From the NCBI RefSeq assembly GCF_041053055.1, contig NZ_CP163443.1, positions 8,167,001-8,231,000 on the forward strand: a DNA stretch of 64,000 bases. The letters are read 5' to 3'. The DNA comes from Streptomyces sp. R41 (GTDB taxonomy: Bacteria; Actinomycetota; Actinomycetes; Streptomycetales; Streptomycetaceae). A model generated the notes under the pieces. That model was not told the DNA's origin. It searched no databases and was given only the letters and a program-made list of their open reading frames with translations. Within the stretch, counting starts at the first letter, position 1. Each line of letters begins with the position of its first letter. The position numbers were made by a program, and so were the translations under genes. Shown here piece by piece: positions 28,783-46,826 of the stretch.

Positions 28783-32820
<4,038 letters not shown>

Positions 32821-33696
32821 TCAGCCCTTGATGCCGGTCTGTGCGACCCCCTGCACCAGCCAGCGCTGGAGGAAGAGGAACACGAACACCAGGGGCAGGA
32901 TGGAAATGGCCGTGGCCATGAAGATCAGGTGGTAGTTGACGGTCTGGTTGGTCATGTACGAGGAGAGCGCGACCTGGACCGTCCACGCGCTCGGGTCCTG
33001 GCCGATGACCAGCGGCCACAGGAAGGCGTTCCAGCCGCTGATGAAGGTGATCGTCGCGATCGCGGCGAAGAAGTTCAGCGAGTTCGGTACGACGACCCGC
33101 CAGTACGCGCCCCAGTAGCCGAGCCCGTCCACACGCGCCGCCTCCTCCAGTTCCTTGGGGAACCCCAGGAAGTACTGCCGGAAGAGGAAGCAGGTGAAAC
33201 CACTGAAGAGGCCCGGAATGATGAGGCCGCGATAGGTGTCCACCCAGCCGAGTGACGAGACCAGCACGAAGCTGGGCACGAAGGTGACGGCCGTGGGAAC
33301 CATCAGGGTGGCCAGGACGGCGTAGAAGACCTTGTTGGCGTGCTTGTAGGGGATTCTGGCCAGGCCGTAGCCGGCGAGGGAGCAGATCAGGAGGGTGCCG
33401 ACGGTCATCAGGACCGCGACGACCATGGAGTTCACCATCGCGCGGCCGAAGTCGACCGTGACGTCGTCGAACGGCTCGGTGATGTTGCCCCACTGGATGT
33501 CCGTGGGGAACCACTTCCAGCTCTCGCCGGTGATCTCCGGGTCCGTCATCAGGGCGTTGCGGACGATCAGATAGAAGGGGAGGAGGAAGAGCAGGGCGGC
33601 GATGCCGATGGCGACGTACAGGCCCGTGTTGCCGATGACGCTGCCGCCGCGCCGGACCTTGCGCGGCTTGCTGATGTCGGGTGCGGTGGTGGTCAC
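32821..33696 (-). CDS. carbohydrate ABC transporter permease (CUT1, MalG-type)
   Basis: 291 residues, six TM helices. The cytoplasmic EAA loop is EEAARVDGLGYWGAYWRVVVPN, the C-terminal end VQGVAQTGIKG is the typical G-x-x-x-x-G-[AS]-[VI]-K-G. It overlaps the preceding permease by ATGA and is followed 12 bp later by the GH2 gene. With its partner and the lipoprotein it forms a galacto-oligosaccharide importer; no ATPase is encoded, so the shared MsiK-type ATPase of Streptomyces is presumably used. Confidence 0.93.
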   Translation of the reverse strand: MTTTAPDISKPRKVRRGGSVIGNTGLYVAIGIAALLFLLPFYLIVRNALMTDPEITGESWKWFPTDIQWGNITEPFDDVTVDFGRAMVNSMVVAVLMTVGTLLICSLAGYGLARIPYKHANKVFYAVLATLMVPTAVTFVPSFVLVSSLGWVDTYRGLIIPGLFSGFTCFLFRQYFLGFPKELEEAARVDGLGYWGAYWRVVVPNSLNFFAAIATITFISGWNAFLWPLVIGQDPSAWTVQVALSSYMTNQTVNYHLIFMATAISILPLVFVFLFLQRWLVQGVAQTGIKG

Positions 33697-34658
33697 TTGG
33701 ACTCCTCACCCCTTCCGAAGCCCATGATCTTGCCCTGGAACAGGGTCACGACGCAGATCAGCAGGGTCAGGACGACCGCCCCCGCGCTGCCGGCGCCGTA
33801 GTCCTGGTTGGTGCCGAGGGCCGTGTTGTAGAGCTCGACGAGGGGCGGCTTGCCCCACGTGGCCTTGCCCAGCAGGTTGTAGAACTCGTCGAAGGCCTGA
33901 TAGGCGGCGATCAGCAGCAGCAGGATCACCGCGGTCGACGTGGCCCGCAGCTGCGGCAGCGTGATGTACCGGAAGGTCTGCCAGCCCGGCTTGGCGCCGT
34001 CGATGGCGGCGGCCTCGTACAGCTCGCCCGGGATGTTCTGCAGCGCCGCGAGGAACAGGATCATGTAGAAGCCGGACTGCAGCCACAGGCGCACGGTCAC
34101 GATGACCAGCCAGTACCAGGGCGGATCGGGATTGGCCAGCCAGGCGATGTTGTCGATGCCGAACCAGCCGATGACGGTGTTGGCGAGGCCGAAGCGGACA
34201 CCGTTGAAGATGGACATCTTCCAGATCAGCGCCGCCGCGACGTAACTGCACGCGGTCGGCAGGAAGAAGACCGAACGGAAGAACGCCTTCATGAAGCGCA
34301 TCCGGTGCACCAGCAGCGCCAGGCCCAACGAGACCGCCCAGGTGGTGGGCACGATGAACGCGGCGAACACGGTGAACGTGCCCAGCGATTTGACGAAGTT
34401 ACTGTTCGTCAGGATCTGGTGGTAGTTGTCGAACCCGATGAACTTGCTGGGGGTGACCGTGTAGCGCGCCTCGAAGAAACTGAGCCAGATGCTCCACCCG
34501 ATGGGGATGAAGATGAAGATCACCAGGCCGATGACGAACGGTCCGGTGAAGAGCCAGAAGTTGAGTGTGGGGTTGCCCCGCAGCCCCCGCCGGGGCCGGG
34601 CCTTGGAGGCCTTGGCCGGGGCGGGGCGCGCGACGTCGCGTGCTGTGGTCGTCGACAT
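33693..34658 (-). CDS. carbohydrate ABC transporter permease (CUT1, MalF-type)
   Basis: 321 residues. A basic cytoplasmic N-terminus is followed by six TM helices; the EAA loop is YEAAAIDGAKPGWQTFRYITLPQL. Between TM1 and TM2 it has the periplasmic stretch SKFIGFDNYHQIL seen in MalF/UgpA-type proteins. It begins 20 bp after the solute-binding protein gene. The import role is as given for its partner permease. Confidence 0.93.
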   Translation of the reverse strand: MSTTTARDVARPAPAKASKARPRRGLRGNPTLNFWLFTGPFVIGLVIFIFIPIGWSIWLSFFEARYTVTPSKFIGFDNYHQILTNSNFVKSLGTFTVFAAFIVPTTWAVSLGLALLVHRMRFMKAFFRSVFFLPTACSYVAAALIWKMSIFNGVRFGLANTVIGWFGIDNIAWLANPDPPWYWLVIVTVRLWLQSGFYMILFLAALQNIPGELYEAAAIDGAKPGWQTFRYITLPQLRATSTAVILLLLIAAYQAFDEFYNLLGKATWGKPPLVELYNTALGTNQDYGAGSAGAVVLTLLICVVTLFQGKIMGFGRGEESK

Positions 34659-34678
34659 GTCGTGGTCCGTCCGCCGGC

Positions 34679-35941
34679 CTATCCGAAGAGCTTCTTGAGC
34701 TCGACGTCGACCTTCTTGTCACAGGCGTCGAGTGCGGCCTCGGGGTTCTGGTTCTTGCGGACGGCGTTGGCCATCACGTCGTTGAACGCCACGATCATGG
34801 CCTGGGTCCAGCCGATGTTGTCGAAGTGCCCGAAGTCGTTGAAGAGCTTGACGCCCTCGGCGGGCAGGCCCGACTTGAGCTTGGTGGCCTCCGCGGCGAT
34901 CGAGGCGCGCGGCGGGATGTGGAAGCCGTACGAGAGCGCCCAGTCCTCCTGGTACTTCTTCTGCTCGATCCACAGCCACTTCACGTACTCCTTGGCCGCC
35001 TCGACGTTCTTGCCCTTGGCGTTGACGAACATCGACCAGCCGCCGTTGTAGACCGACTGCTTGCCGGAGTCGCCGACCTTCGGGAACGGGAAGACGCCGA
35101 GGTCGTCACCGAGCGCCTTCTGCATCACGGGCATCGCCCACATACCGCACCACTGGATGGCACACAGGCCCTGGTCGATGGCGGACGGGTCCCAGTAGTC
35201 GGCCGGGGCGTCGAGCAGCAGGTGGCCGCTGGTGAACAGCCCGTGGAGCTTGGTGAGCCCCTCGGCGACCGCGTCCGTGTGGTAGGCGATCTCGTTCTTC
35301 TCGTTGAGGGTGTCGGCGCCGGCCGACCAGATCAGGTTGCTCTGGATCGACGTGAGGTCGTTGCCCATGAACAGGCCCTTGACCTTGCTGGTGGTCAACT
35401 TGGCGGCGGCCTCTATGAGTTCGTCCAGCGTGGTCGGAACGTCGACCTTGGCCTTCTCCAGCATCGACTTCCGGTAGAAGAAGAACTGCGGGTCGTCGAT
35501 CATCCGCACGCCGTAGATCTTGCCGTCGACCGTGTGCGACTTGATGTCGGCCGGATTGAAGTCGTCCTTGACCGGGTCGATGAGGTCGCTCAGATCGGCC
35601 ACCTGACCGCTCTTGATGAGCTGGATCTGCGGGTGGAACTCGAAGACGTCGGGCGCGTTCTTGGTCAGCAGGGCCGCGAACAGCTTCGTCTCGAAGGTGT
35701 TGCCGGTGATCCACTGGGTGCTCACGTTGGCCTTGTCGTACGCCGCCGCGTACTTCTTGATGGCCTGCTCGGTGCCCGCCTCGCCGTACGCGTGGAAGTA
35801 CTGCGTGAGGCTCTTGCCCGAACCACTGCCGCCCCCGCGGCCGTTGTTGCTGCCGCACGCGGCCAGCGCACCGGCGGCGGACAGGCCCGCGGCTGCCCGG
35901 AGTACTGATCGGCGGTCCCAGTTGCTGCTCATTGCCGACAT
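34679..35941 (-). CDS. sugar ABC transporter substrate-binding lipoprotein (CUT1)
   Basis: 420 residues. Tat-like lipoprotein signal: WDRRSVLRAAAG ... LAACGSNNG, lipid-anchored at the Cys of the LAAC box (~residue 29). The mature part is a cluster B/D-type sugar-binding fold (SBP_bac_1) with FEFHPQIQLIKSGQVADLSDLIDPV, IYGVRMIDDPQFFFYRKSML and a C-terminal WLWIEQKKYQEDWALSYGFHIPPR. AAGGA lies 7-8 nt before the ATG at 35941. A good promoter (35997-36025) precedes it, making it the first gene of the run. Ligand not determined by sequence; galactosyl oligosaccharides are inferred from the GH2 and GH30 genes. Confidence 0.93.
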   Translation of the reverse strand: MSAMSSNWDRRSVLRAAAGLSAAGALAACGSNNGRGGGSGSGKSLTQYFHAYGEAGTEQAIKKYAAAYDKANVSTQWITGNTFETKLFAALLTKNAPDVFEFHPQIQLIKSGQVADLSDLIDPVKDDFNPADIKSHTVDGKIYGVRMIDDPQFFFYRKSMLEKAKVDVPTTLDELIEAAAKLTTSKVKGLFMGNDLTSIQSNLIWSAGADTLNEKNEIAYHTDAVAEGLTKLHGLFTSGHLLLDAPADYWDPSAIDQGLCAIQWCGMWAMPVMQKALGDDLGVFPFPKVGDSGKQSVYNGGWSMFVNAKGKNVEAAKEYVKWLWIEQKKYQEDWALSYGFHIPPRASIAAEATKLKSGLPAEGVKLFNDFGHFDNIGWTQAMIVAFNDVMANAVRKNQNPEAALDACDKKVDVELKKLFG

Positions 35942-35996
35942 GGTGACGTCCTTGTCTCGAGTACGGCTGCGGCTCGAATTCGCTGTGCGGTGCGGG

Positions 35997-36025
35997 ACGT
36001 TAACCTTCTGCTAAGGCTTCGGCAA
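35997..36025 (-). promoter_or_regulatory. promoter of the sugar ABC/GH2 operon
   Basis: Read on the minus strand: -35 TTGCCG (36020-36025), 17-bp spacer, -10 TAACGT (35997-36002), matching Streptomyces HrdB-type TTGACN / TANNNT. The -35 lies inside AACCCCTTGCCGAA, a sequence found almost identically at the ROK gene promoter. The first start codon is 56 bp downstream. Confidence 0.6.
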
Positions 36026-36137
36026 GGGGTTGGACGAAGTCTGTTCGAAGCGTTGCGTGGCGTTCGGGATGCCGGACGTGACGGGGTTGCGGGCCGCCGC
36101 ACCGGCGACCCGCGACCCCTCAACTGCCCTTAGTGCA

Positions 36138-38006
36138 CTACTGCTTGGTCCAGACCTCGTTGGATCCGCCGGTGCAGCTGTAGAGGATCACCTTGCTTCC
36201 GTCGGCGGTTGCCTGACCGCTGACGTCCAGGCACTTGCCGGACGACTCACTGACGATTTGTCCATTCGCGTTCAACTGCCATCGCTGGCCGGCGCTGTCG
36301 GCGCAGGCGGCTGTCACCAGACCCGAACTCCCGGCCGTCAGGCACCCGTTGGAGCCCTTGAGAGCGCCGGATACGTCATACGTCCACGACTGCGCCTCGG
36401 CGCCCGTGCACGTGCTGATCGCGGCCCCCGAAGCGTCCGCCGTCAGGCACTTGCCCGACTGCTTTCCTTGCCGGGCGCCCGTCACGGCCGTGGTGTCGTG
36501 ACCCTTCTGGTCGAAGACGTACGTCGTGATGGAGCGGGCGGCGAGCGTCGCGGAGACCTGGCCCTCCTCGCCCACGGCCGGCTTGGTGACGTTCGCCCAG
36601 TCCTCGGTCGCGGAGGTCCGGACTGCCTGTTGTGCCTTGACAGGCGTCCTGCTGTTGAAGTGCAGATTCAGCGAAGTGTCGGTCGTGTTGTGGTTGTTGA
36701 CCACGACCACCCACTTGCCCATGGGGGTCCCCCCGCGCGAGCTCGTTCGAGCGTGGGGGAGGTCGTACGCCGTCACGTCGACACCGCTCGGCGCCCCGGT
36801 CACGTTGTGCGCGACGGCGCCCGGCTTCACGAACTTGCTGTACTGGCCGAGCGCGTAATAGCGCTTGGTGAAGTAGAGCGTCTGGTTGCCGTTCGTGGCG
36901 TAGTTCGGGTCGTAGTAGATCAGGCCGTCGTTCCAGCCGTCGCCGTTCTTCGCGTACGGGTCGCTGCCGATCATCTCGGAGAGCGCGACCCACCAGTGGA
37001 AGGCCGAGTCGTGCGCGGTCGCGAAGTCCTTGTAGATGATTTTCGACAGGTTCAGGCCGCCGTCGATGGTCGGGTCGTACTCCTGCGCCCAGCCGGTGCC
37101 GCCCTTGCCGAAGCAGCAGATCTCCGTCGCCCAGGGCTGCCTGCCGACCGACGTCGCCGTCTCGTTGATCTTCGCGAGCTGGTCGTCACCGGGGTTGTTG
37201 TACGTGTGGTGGGCCAGCTTCGACACGTACTGTGCGGTGCCGGGCTGCGCGATCCACTGCGGGACCTCGGTGTTGAAGCTGACCGTGCTGCTGGACTCGT
37301 CGGCGATGATGCCCGTCTTCTGGTGGCGCGCCCGCTGCTCGGCGCCCAACGCCCTCACGATGTCGTCGCGTTGGTCGACCGGCACCAGCATGCCCTCCTG
37401 ACCGCAGCTGTCGAAGCTGTTGTTCGGCTCGTTGAAGGGGCTGATGTAGTCGAGCTTCGCGCCCTGCTCGGCGAAGTGATCGGTCACGTCGGCCACGTAC
37501 TTCGCGAAGTCGGCCGTGTTCTTCGCATTCAAGTACCCCCCGCAGCTCTGTGAGTTGGTCTTCCAGGCGGCGGGCGCGCTGTTCACGAAGCCGACCAGGT
37601 CCTCGACGCCGTACCGCGCCGCGTACTTCAGGAACGTACGGCCGCCCTTGTCCCGGCTCCAGTCGTACGTCCCGTCGGCGTTCAGGAAGTCCTCGGGGGC
37701 GCGGGAGGGGGTGGTGACCGCCGTGCCGCCACCGCCGATGTTGTAGCGGTAGTTGCTGAGGTCCAGGCCCTTGGAGGAGAACAGCAGCTTGGCGACCCGG
37801 GCCTGGACCTTGGGGTCGAAGTTCTTGAGGTCGTTGACCCACCAGGCACCGGACGCGCCGATGTTGTCGATGGTCTGGGCGGCGTGCGGGGAGACCTCGG
37901 CGGCTGCGGGGTCGGCGGCTGAAGCGGGCGGGGCGGATATCAGCGTCCCCGTGACAGCGAGTGCGGCTGCGGCTGTGGCGAGGAGCGATCTCTTGGTGCG
38001 CGTCAA
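36138..38006 (-). CDS. secreted GH30 endo-beta-1,6-galactanase-like enzyme with CBM13
   Basis: 622 residues, TTG start preceded by GGAAGGG; no in-frame ATG/GTG upstream. Signal peptide 1-30 (ASA-AD). The (beta/alpha)8 GH30 domain (~42-380) contains YRYNIGGGGTAV, acid/base E193 in SPFNEPNNSF and nucleophile E295 in WATEICCFG, a pattern I recall from GH30 subfamily 5 endo-beta-1,6-galactanases, including the Streptomyces avermitilis enzyme that also has a C-terminal CBM13. A side beta-domain follows (~381-490), then a ricin-type trefoil (~495-622, ending SNEVWTKQ). Residues ~417-428 are encoded by an inserted palindromic repeat (36723-36760). It starts 18 bp after the ROK gene stop and is probably co-transcribed with it. 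Confidence 0.85.
   Translation of the reverse strand: MTRTKRSLLATAAAALAVTGTLISAPPASAADPAAAEVSPHAAQTIDNIGASGAWWVNDLKNFDPKVQARVAKLLFSSKGLDLSNYRYNIGGGGTAVTTPSRAPEDFLNADGTYDWSRDKGGRTFLKYAARYGVEDLVGFVNSAPAAWKTNSQSCGGYLNAKNTADFAKYVADVTDHFAEQGAKLDYISPFNEPNNSFDSCGQEGMLVPVDQRDDIVRALGAEQRARHQKTGIIADESSSTVSFNTEVPQWIAQPGTAQYVSKLAHHTYNNPGDDQLAKINETATSVGRQPWATEICCFGKGGTGWAQEYDPTIDGGLNLSKIIYKDFATAHDSAFHWWVALSEMIGSDPYAKNGDGWNDGLIYYDPNYATNGNQTLYFTKRYYALGQYSKFVKPGAVAHNVTGAPSGVDVTAYDLPHARTSSRGGTPMGKWVVVVNNHNTTDTSLNLHFNSRTPVKAQQAVRTSATEDWANVTKPAVGEEGQVSATLAARSITTYVFDQKGHDTTAVTGARQGKQSGKCLTADASGAAISTCTGAEAQSWTYDVSGALKGSNGCLTAGSSGLVTAACADSAGQRWQLNANGQIVSESSGKCLDVSGQATADGSKVILYSCTGGSNEVWTKQ
36723..36760. repeat. 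GC-rich imperfect palindrome inserted in frame in GH30 gene
   Basis: About 38 bp with G5-T-C6 at one end, C5/G5 outer arms and a GAGCTCG...CGAGC core. It resembles short palindromes I remember scattered in Streptomyces genomes (cores like CCCCC-x-CTCG...CGAGCG-GGGGG). It encodes PHARTSSRGGTP between the strands VDVTAYDL and GKWVVVVNN, residues that look foreign to the GH30 side domain. An insertion length divisible by three keeps the reading frame. Confidence 0.6.
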
Positions 38007-38024
38007 CGTGCATCCCTTCCGTCG

Positions 38025-39272
38025 TCATGAAGGTGGTGCGGTACGGCTCCTTGCGTTGGTGGTGCGCTTCATGGGCCTCTGGCCGACCGACTGGAGTGCC
38101 CCTTCCAGGGCGAACGTCGCGGCTCCGAGGCAGACCGGATCGGTCGGAATGGGGGAGAGGACGATCTCGGTGGCCGCGAACGGCCGCTTCAGTGCGTGCC
38201 GGGCGACGGCCTCGCGCACCTCGTTCAGCAGCGGCTCGCCGAGCGTGGCCGCGACCCAGCTGCTGAGCACGACCACCTCGGGATTGAGGAGGTTCACCAG
38301 GTCGGAGATCCCGGCACCGAGGTAACGGGCGGTGTCCCGCACGACCTTGAGCGCCACCGGATCCTGTGCGGCGACGCCCTGGGCGAGCGCGTTGATCGTG
38401 GCGGTCTGGTCCTCGGGGTGCAGCAGCGAGCTGCGGGGGCTCAACTCCCGCAGATTCAGCATGATTCCGGGCGCCCCGACATACGTCTCCACGCAGCCGT
38501 GGTTGCCGCAGTGGCACAGCCGCCCGTCCAGCACCAGCGTCGTATGGCCCCACTCGCCCGCGCTGTTGCTCACCCCGCGGTGCAGACCGCCGCCGAGGGC
38601 GAGCCCGGCGCCGACTCCCGTGCCCAGATTGACGACCACGGCATCCCCGCGTCCGCGGGCCGCGCCGAACCAGAGCTCGGCGACCGCGCAGGCGCGCAAC
38701 GGATTGTCGAGGTAGAGGGGGTAGGCGATGTGCTCGGCGAGCAGGGCGAGCAGCGGCACGTCGTGCCAGTCCCAGTTCGGGGCGTATTCGGAGACCCCGC
38801 CCTCGCGGTCGACCTGACCGGGCACGCTGACCCCCACGCCGAGGACGCGCGCGCCTTCGACGCCGGCCTGCGCGACCACCGAACCGACCGCCGTCGCGAC
38901 ATGCCCGACCACCTGCTCCGGTCGGCTCTCGCCGGGGCGCATGTCCTCGTCGGCGCGGGCCAGCACATTCAGCGCCAGGTCGAACAGCTCGACGCGTACG
39001 TACGTCTCCGCGATGTCGACGCCGATCAACGCGCCCCCCGACGCGTTGACGGCGACGAGGCCCCGCGGGCGGCCACCCGCGGAGTCCTCGAAGCCGACCT
39101 CGGTCAGCATCCTCATGTCGAGGAGCTCACCGACGAGTGTGGCGACCGTGGCCAGGCTGAGCCCCGTCGCTGCCGCGAGCTCCTGCCGGGAGGTGGGCGA
39201 TTCGGCGATGATCTGGCGCAGCACCTCGTAGCGGTTGGCGGTGCGGATGTCGCGTGATGTGCCGCGCCTCAT
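38025..39272 (-). CDS. ROK family transcriptional regulator
   Basis: 415 residues. N-terminal winged HTH (~12-70: RYEVLRQIIAESPTSRQELAAATGLSLATVATLVGELL) and a ROK sugar-kinase-like domain: GVDIAETYVRVELFDL, VVNLGTGVGAGLALGGGLHRG, and the zinc motif CHCGNHGCVETYVG (GHxxx..CxCGxxGCxE). The ATP-binding DxGxT motif is degenerate (DIAET), consistent with a regulator rather than a kinase. It is immediately followed by the GH30 gene. A promoter sharing a 14-bp block with that of the sugar ABC operon lies upstream, suggesting common control, most simply repression relieved by a galactose-related ligand. Confidence 0.93.
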   Translation of the reverse strand: MRRGTSRDIRTANRYEVLRQIIAESPTSRQELAAATGLSLATVATLVGELLDMRMLTEVGFEDSAGGRPRGLVAVNASGGALIGVDIAETYVRVELFDLALNVLARADEDMRPGESRPEQVVGHVATAVGSVVAQAGVEGARVLGVGVSVPGQVDREGGVSEYAPNWDWHDVPLLALLAEHIAYPLYLDNPLRACAVAELWFGAARGRGDAVVVNLGTGVGAGLALGGGLHRGVSNSAGEWGHTTLVLDGRLCHCGNHGCVETYVGAPGIMLNLRELSPRSSLLHPEDQTATINALAQGVAAQDPVALKVVRDTARYLGAGISDLVNLLNPEVVVLSSWVAATLGEPLLNEVREAVARHALKRPFAATEIVLSPIPTDPVCLGAATFALEGALQSVGQRPMKRTTNARSRTAPPS

Positions 39273-42820: not shown

Positions 42821-42902
42821 GTCACAGGCGGGGGCATACCGTGAGGAGTCGAGCACACGGCCTGGAACGAGACTGGGACGAGTCGGGAGCGAGGAGTACG
42901 GG

Positions 42903-44225
42903 ATGGGCGGCAGCCGCACCGCGCTGGTCGAGGATCTGATGGAACGGTTCCCGCACGTGCCACGGGAAGCCGTCTTCAAGGAGGACCTGCTCCGTGGTGG
43001 CGTGGCCTTCGACGCGTCCGCCCTGAGTGACAACGAGGGCGGCGAGGTCAAGCCGAAGTCGTACTTCATCTTCTCCTTCGACCACGGCACCCTGCCCGAG
43101 CTGGGCGAGGCCGCGCTCAGGCGCCCGCCCGAGGAGATCATCCTCACCGGAGGCCCGTACGACCTGCGGCGGACCGTCGTGTCCGTACGCGTCAATCCGT
43201 CCTCGCCGTACCGGGTGGCCGCCGACGACGACGGCGTGCTCGGGCTGTACCTCGACGGGAAGCGGATCTCCGACGTCGGGGTGCCGCCGATGCCGGAGTA
43301 CTACCGGCACAAGCTCTCCAACGGGAAGTCCGTGATGGAGGTGGCCCCGACGATCCAGTGGGGCTACCTCATCTACCTGACCGTCTTTAGGGTCTGCCAG
43401 TACTTCGGCGCCAAGGAGGAGTGCCAGTACTGCGACATCAACCACAACTGGCGCCAGCACAAGGCGGCGGGCCGCCCGTACACCGGCGTCAAGGACGTCG
43501 ACGAGGTCCTTGAAGCGCTCGAGATCATCGACCGCTATGACGCCGCGAAGGCGTCCACCGCGTACACGCTCACCGGCGGCGCGATCACCTCGAAGCTGCA
43601 GGGCCGCGACGAGGCCGACTTCTACGGGCTCTACGCCAAGGCCATCGAGGAGCACTTCCCCGGACGCTGGATCGGCAAGGTGGTTGCGCAGGCTCTCCCG
43701 CGCGACGACGTGCAGCGGTTCAAGGACTACGGCGTGCAGATCTACCACCCCAACTACGAGGTGTGGGACCGCCGCCTCTTCGAGTTGTACTGCCCGGGCA
43801 AGGAGCGCTACGTAGGCCGCGACGAGTGGCACAAGCGCATCCTCGACTCGGCGGAGATCTTCGGCGCGCGCAATGTGATCCCCAACTTCGTCGCCGGCGT
43901 GGAGATGGCTGAGCCCTTCGGCTTCACCACGGTCGACGAGGCCATCGCCTCCACCACCGAGGGGCTGCGCTTCTTCATGTCGCACGGCATCACGCCCCGC
44001 TTCACCACGTGGTGCCCGGAGCCCACCACCCCGCTGGGCAAGGCCAACCCGCAGGGCGCGCCCCTGGAGTACCACATCCGCCTCCTTCAGGCCTACCGCT
44101 CCACGATGGAGGACTTCGGCCTCTCCTCACCGCCCGGATACGGCCCTCCCGGACCGGGGAACGCGGTCTTCTCCGTCAGCTCCTTCATGGACAGCCTTCC
44201 CGCGCAGGAGCCGTCGCAGGTGTAA
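42903..44225 (+). CDS. radical SAM-like protein with CX8CX2C cysteine motif
   Basis: 440 residues. Near the middle, YLTVFRVCQYFGAKEECQYC places Cys165, Cys174 and Cys177 as CX8CX2C, with CDINHNW after it as in radical SAM proteins (C-x-aromatic-C). The usual spacing is CX3CX2C. Downstream TAYTLTGGAIT corresponds to the GGE motif region, VVAQALPRDDVQRFKDYGVQ and HPNYEVWDRRLFE to later barrel strands, and FVAGVEMAEPFGF to the SAM-contacting strand; a TIM-barrel radical enzyme is likely. GAGGAG lies 7-8 nt before the chosen ATG. Function unknown. It follows a flavin protein gene, possibly an electron or redox partner. Confidence 0.75.
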   Translation: MGGSRTALVEDLMERFPHVPREAVFKEDLLRGGVAFDASALSDNEGGEVKPKSYFIFSFDHGTLPELGEAALRRPPEEIILTGGPYDLRRTVVSVRVNPSSPYRVAADDDGVLGLYLDGKRISDVGVPPMPEYYRHKLSNGKSVMEVAPTIQWGYLIYLTVFRVCQYFGAKEECQYCDINHNWRQHKAAGRPYTGVKDVDEVLEALEIIDRYDAAKASTAYTLTGGAITSKLQGRDEADFYGLYAKAIEEHFPGRWIGKVVAQALPRDDVQRFKDYGVQIYHPNYEVWDRRLFELYCPGKERYVGRDEWHKRILDSAEIFGARNVIPNFVAGVEMAEPFGFTTVDEAIASTTEGLRFFMSHGITPRFTTWCPEPTTPLGKANPQGAPLEYHIRLLQAYRSTMEDFGLSSPPGYGPPGPGNAVFSVSSFMDSLPAQEPSQV

Positions 44226-44647
44226 TCCGTTCTGCGCCCCCGGACACAGAGGGGTGTGTCTCAACGGGCGTAACGCCTCCGGCGGATGGTGGGCGTCGAA
44301 GGTCCGGTGAATGTCGACGGGAATCGAGACTTTCTGGCCTTCCTTCCGTACAACACTCGGGGCGCCTGGAGTTGGGCGACCTGTAGGGCCGACGCCCTGG
44401 GACGCCCGGGGGCGGATCGTCGCCACCGAGCGGCAGGGCCGTTGGCGGGACGGGACGGTTCGGTTGCATCGCACCACCGGTGCGATGCAACCGCTTGCCC
44501 ATCATTTGAATACGTCGCTTGTCAGTTGTGCGGAAACCGTGAAAGGCTCGGGCACCGTCGTGAGACGGACCCCAACTCCCTTGTCTGGGACCCGAGTTGG
44601 GCATTGCATTACTTTGCACATGGAAGCAGTGGATGCAGGAGCCCCCC
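44226..44647. other. 422-bp regulatory gap with two long inverted repeats
   Basis: No gene seen. It holds a 33-bp perfect palindrome (44461-44493), a second dyad CCCAACTC-N15-GAGTTGGG (44571-44601), and a possible ECF-type promoter GGAAAC-N18-CGTC (44532-44559). All lie in the 190 bp before the sigma-like/CBM2 fusion gene, whose SD sequence GCAGGAG is at the right edge. The left ~200 bp contain nothing I can interpret. Confidence 0.5.
44461..44493. promoter_or_regulatory. 33-bp perfect palindrome
   Basis: 15-bp arms starting CGGTTGCATCGCACC with a 3-nt ACC loop. Too symmetrical to be chance. As RNA it would be a strong hairpin without a U-run, so it can be a terminator for the radical SAM gene or a DNA operator for the fusion gene 155 bp downstream. 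Confidence 0.65.
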
Positions 44648-46132
44648 ATGCCTGACCTGCCGACCCCTCAGGACGCCGCCGAGGCCGCGCTGTTCTCGGA
44701 GAGCTGGGACGCGGTCCTGTCGTACGCCGATCTGTGCACGTCCGGTTCCGCTTCGGCCACCCAGCTGGCCACCGAGGCGTTCACCCACGGCATCCGCGAG
44801 GCGCGCGAGGTCGGCTCGGGAGCGAAGAGTACCGGCCGCCGGGCGCTGCGGCTGCCCCGGATTCCCCTGCTGCTGACGTCGGTTCGGACCACGGCCGCCG
44901 CCTGGGAGGCGCACGGCCAGGGGCACCGGCTCGACCCCGACCTCAGGCTGTGGCTCAACTCCGAGAAGGCCACCCGCTACACCGGGCCGCCGCTGCACCG
45001 CCCGCTCGCGCTGCGCGGCCTCAGGGACATGCAGGAACCCGACGCCGCGCTGCTGTGGCTCGCCGAGGTCGAGTCGCTGCCGCTGCCCGCCGTGGCCCGG
45101 CGGCTCGGCCTGGACCCGGCGGCCGCGGCGGAGGAACTCGCCCAGGTGCGGGCGCTCTTCAGGGACCGGTGCCATCGCAACCACCTCGACACACCGATGG
45201 ACGCCAACTGCCGCAGCTACGCCCGGCTCCTCGACGCGGTCACCCGCTCACCCGGCGCCGAGACGCCCGAGGATCTCTCCCGGCATCTCGCCCGGTGCGT
45301 CGAGTGCGCGGAGGCGGCCGCCTGTCTGCGGCTGCACGGCGGCGGGCTGCCCGCGGCGCTCGCCGGCGGGGTGATCGGCTGGGGCGGCCTCGCGTATCTG
45401 GAGCGCCGGCGCCGGGCCGCCGAGGCGGGGCTGGCGGGCGGACGTACGGACGCGGCCGTGGACACGGGCCTCGCCGAGGGCAAGGTGGCCGGGCCCCGGA
45501 TCGGCCGGACCGGGCTCCTGGCCGCGGCCGTCATCGTGTCGGCGCTGGCGCTCACGGTCTCGCTGATGCCGTTCGACGGTTCCAGGGGCGGGGACGCCTC
45601 CGCACGCGGCGACTCGGCGGACCGGCAGCCCGTGGCGGACCCGGGCGTCTCGTCCCCCTCGGCCACCACGCGCCCCGCCGGCTCCCTCGTGTCACCCGAA
45701 CCGTCGGACTCGACGACCGGCTCCGAGACGAACCCCGACCCCGAACCTCAGGGCACGTCCACGTCCCCCGCCGAGACGCCCCACAAGTCCGCGCACCCGA
45801 CAAAGAGCGCATCGTCGTCCTGCAAGGTGAAGTACGAGATCGTCAACCAGTGGCCGGACGGCTTCCAGGCCACCGTCACCGTCACCTCCGCCAAGGCCCT
45901 CGACTCCTGGCGGATCGCCTGGACCTTCCACGACGGCCAACGCGTCACCCAGATGTGGGACGGCACCTTCGTCCAACACGACTCCCGCGTGACCGCGAGC
46001 GCCGCCGACTACAACAAGTCGGTCGCCGCGGGCGGCACTTTCGCGGTCGGTTTCCTCGCCTCTTGGCGGGACGGGAACTCGGTGCCGGGGAACTTCACGC
46101 TCGACGGGAGCAGTTGTACGACGGCGGAGTGA
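44648..46132 (+). CDS. sigma factor-like / zinc-finger anti-sigma / transmembrane / CBM2 fusion protein
   Basis: 494 residues. Residues ~15-180 resemble a degenerate ECF sigma factor: LFSESWDAVLSYADLCT..ATEAF (sigma2-like), then LRGLRDMQEPDAALLWLAEV and LPLPAVARRLGLDPAAAAEEL (sigma4-like HTH). Residues 188-226 carry a ZAS zinc-binding motif, H213-x3-C217-x2-C220. One TM helix spans ~288-307. A Ser/Thr/Pro linker (~310-390) leads to a family 2 carbohydrate-binding module (391-491) with terminal Cys392/Cys490 and tryptophans W402, W421, W425, W437 and W473. Topology predicts the sigma part inside and the cellulose/xylan-binding module outside. It could sense polysaccharide and signal to transcription, like RsgI proteins or ECF fusions. 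GCAGGAG precedes the ATG. Confidence 0.85.
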   Translation: MPDLPTPQDAAEAALFSESWDAVLSYADLCTSGSASATQLATEAFTHGIREAREVGSGAKSTGRRALRLPRIPLLLTSVRTTAAAWEAHGQGHRLDPDLRLWLNSEKATRYTGPPLHRPLALRGLRDMQEPDAALLWLAEVESLPLPAVARRLGLDPAAAAEELAQVRALFRDRCHRNHLDTPMDANCRSYARLLDAVTRSPGAETPEDLSRHLARCVECAEAAACLRLHGGGLPAALAGGVIGWGGLAYLERRRRAAEAGLAGGRTDAAVDTGLAEGKVAGPRIGRTGLLAAAVIVSALALTVSLMPFDGSRGGDASARGDSADRQPVADPGVSSPSATTRPAGSLVSPEPSDSTTGSETNPDPEPQGTSTSPAETPHKSAHPTKSASSSCKVKYEIVNQWPDGFQATVTVTSAKALDSWRIAWTFHDGQRVTQMWDGTFVQHDSRVTASAADYNKSVAAGGTFAVGFLASWRDGNSVPGNFTLDGSSCTTAE

Positions 46133-46142
46133 GCGCGGCCGG

Positions 46143-46826
46143 TCACTCTCGTTCGCGCAGAACCCGTCCGCCCGAGCAGGGCCGAGCGGCTTGACGGTCG
46201 TTCATCTCCCTCGGTGTTCGAAGGAGGTGAGGCAGCAGACCGCAGAACACCTCGGCGGCGTTCCTGCCGGCCGGCTCGTGACGGCTGTCGTCCTTGTGGC
46301 TGTCGGCCTCGTCCGACATTCCCCGCACGACCAGCCACGGCTTGGGGGTACCGGCCTCGTTGGCGGCGGCGTGCACGGCCTCGACCAGACCGGCGCCCTC
46401 GGTCTCCACGGCGAGGACCTTCTCGTTGTACTCGCTGAGATACCGGCGTTCCGCCGCGTCGACGTGGGCGATCACCGCCTCGCCGGAGCCGATGAGCCCG
46501 CGCAGAGCCCGGTGATCGGGTCCGTCGGGCAGCGGCCAGGGTTCGCCGTTCTCTGTGAAGAAGTCGTTGATCGCGTGCTGGACTCGGGCGGTCACGGGGT
46601 GGCTGCGCCCACGTCGCCGTACTCCCTCGGGCGTGATCTTGCGCGGCTCGTAGTGAACGATCTCCTGCGCGATCACCACGTCGCCGACGTGCACGTCGGG
46701 GTGGACGGAGCCGCCGATCCCCACCAGCGCCAGGAGCCGCGGCGCGAAGCTCTGACGCAGGTACGCCACCGCGTTGCCGGCGAACTGCTGGCCCGGCAGC
46801 AGCGACTGGGTGACGACCACGCGCAC
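46143..46826 (-). CDS. nucleoside phosphorylase-superfamily protein, probably 5'-truncated
   Basis: 227 residues from a GTG. The core FAPRLLALVGIGGSVHPDVHVGDVVIAQEIVHYEPRK (phosphorylase/MTAN GIGG motif) and VLAVETEGAGLVEAVH..PWLVVRGMSDEAD (METEGA and GxSD motifs) identifies the PNP/MTAN fold that cleaves nucleoside glycosidic bonds. Coding-like sequence continues upstream in the same frame (ETRALIDALSRRGAHHKEV, HQFSWDAAGRTVRVVV) for ~40 codons without any start codon until a TGA near 46955. So the real protein was longer, often fused to another domain, and this copy has probably lost its start. It is convergent with the CBM2 fusion gene. Confidence 0.6.
   Translation of the reverse strand: MRVVVTQSLLPGQQFAGNAVAYLRQSFAPRLLALVGIGGSVHPDVHVGDVVIAQEIVHYEPRKITPEGVRRRGRSHPVTARVQHAINDFFTENGEPWPLPDGPDHRALRGLIGSGEAVIAHVDAAERRYLSEYNEKVLAVETEGAGLVEAVHAAANEAGTPKPWLVVRGMSDEADSHKDDSRHEPAGRNAAEVFCGLLPHLLRTPREMNDRQAARPCSGGRVLRERE

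Follow-up and report, generated by a model that had tools for sequence, protein, structure and literature searches.

A degenerate sigma-like domain in an ECF52-related, CBM2-bearing membrane protein of Streptomyces

In the clostridial RsgI-SigI sensors, an external carbohydrate binder is coupled across the membrane to the control of a sigma factor, which is a separate protein. Such systems have been mentioned for C. thermocellum (PMC10766802). In ECF52, as described for SCO4117 of S. coelicolor, the sigma part, whose sigma-70 ECF domain is given as CDD entry 02937, is followed in the same chain by a zinc finger, a transmembrane helix, a Pro-rich linker, and a carbohydrate-binding domain (PMC5826349), and polysaccharide-triggered proteolytic release of the sigma factor has been proposed (PMC5826349, PMC8999054). 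PhyR has a correct ECF structure in which the promoter and core regions are degenerate, and it titrates an anti-sigma factor (PMC8103513).

The gene studied here lies in a window of 64,000 nucleotides (the whole stretch of DNA that was analysed) from Streptomyces sp. R41, and its features are collected in Table 1. It encodes the protein, hereafter the CBM2 protein, in one frame that includes the transmembrane and CBM parts, as the preliminary description had claimed, and 37 of 38 ortholog loci show a start that reads M-P/S-D/H-L-P. The list of domains given there was borne out in every part: a sigma-like region (about residues 10-183), a zinc motif, one transmembrane helix, a Ser/Pro/Thr linker, and a CBM2. 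Its suspicion that the architecture may be partly known was also right, since ECF52 has been described with this architecture (PMC5826349, PMC8999054). The CBM2 protein has the same domain order as ECF52, a zinc finger of the ZAS type, the VIGWxGxA motif that follows the zinc finger in both proteins (within helix pair 231-262), and homology to the ECF52 of its own genome over residues 9-249 (BLASTP E 8e-16; hhalign profile-profile probability 100, E 2.2e-42, 238 columns). It differs from ECF52 in lacking the signatures and the constraint of sigma2.2 and sigma4.2, in carrying a CBM2 where the own-genome ECF52 carries an NPCBM, and in lying across a tree branch with support 99/97. The combination of a transcription-derived part with a polysaccharide binder, and of sigma-like and anti-sigma-like parts in a single chain, was thus supported, with the intracellular placement predicted. 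The parallel that had been drawn to RsgI-SigI held in function only, in that the CBM2 protein also links an external (predicted) carbohydrate binder through the membrane to a sigma-related part; no RsgI domain appeared in the Pfam scan, in which the N-terminal anti-sigma domain of RsgI had no match.

Table 1. Features of the CBM2-protein gene and its surroundings, with positions in the window.
Feature	Position	Strand	Basis or remark
Whole gene, 494 aa + stop	44648..46132	+	ATG at 44648, stop ending at 46132
Sigma2-like region, residues 10-104; Q39 vs D in ECF52-like rows	44675..44959	+	Model/structure matches, hallmarks, constraint test
Sigma4-like region, residues 118-183; ECF52 LPERWQ and RARE signatures gone	44999..45196	+	Structure matches, hallmarks, constraint test
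Zinc-finger anti-sigma (ZAS-type) region, residues 184-230	45197..45337	+	Conserved ligands, PDB anti-sigma matches
Strongly conserved helix pair, residues 231-262 (GLPAALAGGVIGWGGLAYLERRRR)	45338..45433	+	Lowest dN/dS-like ratio, 0.12
Single transmembrane helix (predicted), residues 289-307	45512..45568	+	Kyte-Doolittle hydropathy
Ser/Pro/Thr-rich linker, residues 313-390	45584..45817	+	Fastest evolving part
CBM2, residues 392-490, aromatics W402, W437, Y455	45821..46117	+	Pfam E 3.2e-25
Conserved block GCTTGTCAGTTGTG...CGTGAAAxGCTC, candidate promoter/operator	44517..44549	+	81-sequence alignment
Inverted repeat CAACTC-N15-GAGTTG before the start codon	44573..44599	+	Exact in 53/81 sequences
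Radical SAM gene (NF045502 variant_rSAM)	42900-44225	+	Directly upstream of the CBM2-protein gene
GH2 beta-galactosidase, solute-binding protein, GH30 + ricin lectin, ROK regulator	29941-39272	-	

Our preferred explanation, to which we give a probability of about 0.5, is that the CBM2 protein is a single-pass cellulose receptor derived from ECF52, in which the sigma part would be a pseudo-sigma that works by protein contact, by analogy with PhyR. The resemblance to PhyR lies in a predicted ECF fold whose core and promoter regions have degenerated. PhyR, which belongs to the alphaproteobacterial general stress response, differs in that it carries the receiver domain of a response regulator and binds NepR; the Pfam scan showed no receiver in the CBM2 protein.

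Judged from sequence and from the predicted model, the protein does have a sigma-like region, although a degenerate one. In agreement with the preliminary description, AlphaFold predicted that the intracellular part folds as an ECF sigma factor (pLDDT 88.7, pTM 0.87), and ECF sigma factors stood at the top of the structural matches to the predicted model. Among the domain models that the same description had named, CBM_2 was found, and the sigma models and zf-HC2 were not. The Pfam scan with E up to 1 gave CBM_2 (88.8 bits, cut-off 24) and one chance-level match, and no sigma model of Pfam or NCBIfam matched the CBM2 protein at a limit of E 10, a search in which the HMMER filters discard most weak matches above about 0.1. 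The own-genome ECF52 matched TIGR02937 with an E of 2.4e-16. This model matched 8 of the 28 rows of the mixed alignment A4, which includes eight ECF52-like rows, and at 0.01 it matched none of the 20 rows left once those eight were removed; three other sigma models each matched one member of the 20, weakly (E 0.0023-0.0032). The hallmarks of ECF52 are replaced as well. All eight ECF52-like rows have a D in region 2.2, which is a core-polymerase contact, and they mostly have LPERWQ in 4.1 and RAREGL in 4.2; at the corresponding sites the CBM2 protein has TQLATEAF, MQEPDA, and QVRALF. The position of the region 2.2 Asp (residue 39) is Q in 65 of 81 orthologs, E in 11, R in 4, and D in 1. Against the pseudo-sigma reading, the E at this position in those 11 orthologs has to be counted, region 4.1 and R80, W86, L40, and F45 are still conserved, and L002, a broken paralog outside the 20 rows, matches TIGR02937 with an E of 0.002 (17.8 bits, cut-off 42.9).

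The result that matters most comes from a matched control, in which the CBM2 protein was set against ECF52 within the 10 genomes that had both loci paired, over seven regions and with raw p values for each region. In region 2.2, ECF52 had no variable site among 15 and the CBM2 protein had 9 (raw p 0.0007), and in sigma4.2 the numbers were 3 of 30 and 14 of 30 (raw p 0.003). No clear difference between ECF52 and the CBM2 protein was found in region 2.1 (1/13 vs 2/13), regions 2.3-2.4 (9/20 vs 10/20), region 4.1 (2/21 vs 6/21), the ZAS region (17/43 vs 11/42), or helix 233-250 (3/14 vs 3/18). Two results of this comparison weigh against the pseudo-sigma reading, namely the greater variability of the CBM2 protein over residues 15-250 overall (88/237 variable sites vs 62/240 in ECF52, p 0.01) and the lack of a difference from ECF52 in helix 20-32, the ZAS region, and helix 233-250. 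In the larger sets of 30 ECF52 and 81 CBM2 proteins, which are unmatched and in which divergence is relative to the mean of each protein, region 2.2 was the lowest of the seven regions in ECF52 (0.26) and the highest in the CBM2 protein (1.66). Relative divergence in these unmatched sets fell from 0.75 in ECF52 to 0.23 in the CBM2 protein for helix 20-32 and from 0.81 to 0.40 for helix 233-250, and the ZAS region was also relatively more constrained in the CBM2 protein. On these alignments, the transcription surfaces have lost constraint and the remaining fold is kept. Because the ECF fold is kept and the constrained core-polymerase and promoter surfaces are lost, the sigma part is probably no longer a transcription initiator.

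The idea, implicit in the preliminary description, that the sigma part works as a sigma factor was not supported by the comparison, in which the 2.2 and 4.2 surfaces lacked the ECF52 signature and were far more variable than those of the same-genome ECF52. A related possibility, which is the main rival but which we consider unlikely, is a divergent, working ECF52-like sigma factor that would be released by proteolysis on contact with polysaccharide and would direct a small glycan regulon through altered core contacts. A complete sigma2 and sigma4 in the predicted model, purifying selection on residues 1-262, and a domain order like that of SCO4117, for which such a mechanism has been proposed (PMC5826349, PMC8999054), would be expected from it. 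It is hard to reconcile with the region 2.2 Asp being present in one of 81 orthologs as opposed to all eight ECF52-like rows, with the loss of the RARE motif from sigma4.2, with variation in both surfaces where ECF52 hardly varies, and with the failure of every sigma model to match the CBM2 protein.

Behind the sigma-like region, the zinc motif C188...H213-x3-C217-x2-C220 has its four ligands invariant in all 81 orthologs. A profile search of the PDB with E up to 1 matched five sequences, all anti-sigma factors (E 0.012-0.75). The ZAS part alone had no match in the structure search, which counts against the pseudo-sigma reading. The helix pair 231-262 is possibly the fourth anti-sigma helix. 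The block of residues 231-260 had a pLDDT of 88-96 when modelled with the sigma-like part and 53-68 when modelled without it, and this confidence only beside the sigma-like part fits docking within the chain. These same parts could be read in another way, in which the ZAS region would be the working part, acting as a cellulose-controlled anti-sigma factor in trans (e.g. for ECF52), and the pseudo-sigma would be an internal plug. We regard this as improbable, the more so than the release of a working sigma factor: the invariant zinc ligands and the lowest dN/dS-like ratio at residues 231-262 would suit it, as would the presence of ECF52 in 56 of 61 Streptomyces genomes searched, but ECF52 is thereby near-universal, and its co-occurrence with the CBM2 protein therefore says little.

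The transmembrane helix, the one strongly hydrophobic helix of the protein, has a mean Kyte-Doolittle value of 2.33, the next separate segment being at 1.31 (residues 233-251). In the CBM2, the aromatics W402, W437, and Y455 align to Trp residues of the CBM2 chains 6qfs and 1exg, the third being Tyr and not Trp, and none of the three varies among the 81 orthologs. Three surface aromatics serve cellulose binding in CBM2 modules. Because these aromatics are fixed and aligned to the Trp residues of 6qfs and 1exg, cellulose would be the likeliest ligand. In 37 orthologs, the dN/dS-like ratio, for which a simple counting method was used so that rank order alone is meaningful, was lowest for residues 231-262, followed by the sigma-like and zinc parts (0.22-0.30), CBM2 (0.64), residues 263-312 (0.67), and the linker (1.1). 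Residues 1-262 are under purifying selection. If the protein were a wall anchor or a cellulose adhesin at the surface, in which a sigma/anti-sigma relic would be a structural anchor with no regulatory role, this would account for the full retention of the CBM2 aromatics and for the relaxed sigma surfaces. However, constraint is stronger on residues 1-262 than on the CBM2 (0.12-0.30 vs 0.64) and the zinc ligands are invariant in 81 orthologs, which together exceeds the needs of an inert anchor, and we consider such a role about as unlikely as that of a working sigma factor.

In the receptor that we prefer, the topology, the ligand, the release step, and both the existence and the identity of the partner are what we infer. 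Outside, according to the predicted topology, the CBM2 on its long flexible linker would bind cellulose or a similar polysaccharide. Inside, again as predicted, the sigma-like domain would be docked on the zinc-type anti-sigma domain of its own chain. Ligand binding, perhaps together with proteolysis, would alter the docked module, and the sigma-like or the anti-sigma face could then bind a putative partner in trans and thereby shift the activity of a real sigma factor.

The surroundings of the gene were also compared. The conserved upstream block, whose 15-mer CGCTTGTCAGTTGTG has one exact occurrence in the genome, suggests that the CBM2-protein gene has its own promoter. The inverted repeat CAACTC-N15-GAGTTG is found at 31 places genome-wide, and AGTTG/CAACT recurs inside the conserved block. 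Between the radical SAM gene and the CBM2-protein gene, two 14-bp arms at positions 44462-44492 match perfectly as an inverted repeat around a loop of 3 nt; none of the 15 other ortholog rows inspected shows it. The radical SAM gene precedes that of the CBM2 protein, in the same orientation, in 62 of 63 loci with full flanks. It adjoins in 55 of 56 carriers of the CBM2 protein, with match-to-match gaps of 166-2404 bp, and 37 of 94 non-carriers have it at some place in the genome. No sigma gene was found among the neighbours scanned around the CBM2-protein gene, and it counts against the pseudo-sigma reading that the constant neighbour is a radical SAM gene and not a sigma or anti-sigma gene. 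The sugar-transport/ROK locus is often retained near the orthologs (ROK in 53/63, solute-binding protein in 49/63), with its order partly preserved, and synteny alone may explain why this locus and the radical SAM gene stay nearby. The richness of the window in glycan-degrading genes, which had been pointed out before, was confirmed by GH2, GH30 with a ricin lectin, PL4, and GH95 among 10 window proteins scanned, which also include the solute-binding protein and the ROK regulator. Downstream, on the opposite strand, lies a nucleosidase-like gene (PNP_UDP_1, 46143-46826); a gene of this kind was found within the flank in none of the 63 ortholog loci (E 1e-30, half length).

The CBM2 protein is encoded by 56 of the 150 Streptomyces genomes scanned, and 140 of them encode at least a relative of its intracellular part. 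The 56 carriers are 60 genomes minus G054, G068, G095, and G149 (55-57 percent match, not beside the radical SAM gene) and include G003, which matched over residues 1-181 only. Among 296 genomes of the class, 27 matched at 1e-8; 24 of these are Streptomyces, holding all close copies, and three other genera are represented by one genome each with weak matches. All of the 120 relatives listed of 842 that have an organism name are Streptomyces, as are the best 80 of 269 relatives except one, Actinobacteria bacterium OK074. The A4 alignment consists of 28 hand-picked rows, with L002, the partial L057, L060, L062, and most close orthologs left out, and the four zinc ligands are present in all 28. 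In the tree of these intracellular parts, whose root is for drawing only and in which the long ricin rows L007 and L053 meet, perhaps falsely, support is 99/97 for the branch between the eight ECF52-like rows and the remaining 20, and 100/100 for a single group of CBM2 rows.

All nine ricin-like rows scanned carry a ricin-B lectin. These are the own-genome loci L003 and L007, which share the degenerate sigma part and the four zinc ligands and in which ricin-B replaces CBM2, together with L050-L053 and L064-L066, which have the same degenerate sigma part; in all of them the lectin alone scored above the Pfam cut-off. For two ricin subgroups, with L002 left out on account of its in-frame stop, the reference was ECF52 of the matched genomes, 12 and 8 in number. 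In the subgroups, sigma4.2 was variable at 17/30 and 15/30 sites, as against 3/30 and 2/30 in ECF52, and region 2.2 of subgroup 2 at 12/15 as against 0/15. Subgroup 1 speaks against the pseudo-sigma reading in two respects: its region 2.2 is not clearly freed (4/15 variable, p 0.10), being fairly constant though D and E are gone, and its helix 233-250 is more variable (11/18). With sigma4.2 freed in both subgroups and region 2.2 in one, the loss of promoter contacts looks general across the clade and that of core contacts less uniform. A single ancestral loss of sigma function in the clade is suggested. L054 and L061 have a recognisable sigma region 2 together with a ricin-type lectin and could be intermediate forms that link ECF52 to the pseudo-sigma clade. 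L002 (own genome, C1:9429799-9430521) is a ricin-type paralog with an in-frame TAG, either a broken gene or a sequencing error. More tentatively than for the CBM2 protein itself, and with some doubt, we suggest that Streptomyces may hold a class of membrane-tethered sigma mimics that arose by one ancestral loss of sigma function in an ECF52-type fusion and then spread, with CBM2 and ricin-B as interchangeable sugar binders on the outside; each mimic would tune a real sigma factor or its anti-sigma factor in trans, answering to an extracellular glycan of its own.

The architecture of sigma part, zinc finger, transmembrane helix, and carbohydrate binder is already known. What is new is the degeneration against the sigma models together with the loosened constraint on 2.2 and 4.2 relative to ECF52 in the same genomes. 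Our literature search, in which the ECF classification papers were partly covered, found no paper on degenerate ECF52-like proteins. Among the names listed, the CBM2 protein is called a cellulose-binding (domain-containing) protein, a hydrolase, or hypothetical, and never a sigma factor. Among 10 plasmid relatives listed (32-38 percent identity), eight are named as sigma-70 family and one is named for a cellulose binding domain; recognition is thus partial among the more distant relatives. If our explanation is true, degenerate sigma domains would serve, beyond soluble switches such as PhyR, as membrane receptors that read solid polysaccharides, proteins that now take their names from a cellulose-binding domain would regulate transcription without having been recognised as regulators, an ECF52-like architecture would not by itself make a protein a sigma factor, and the CBM2 protein would offer a handle on cellulose sensing in Streptomyces.
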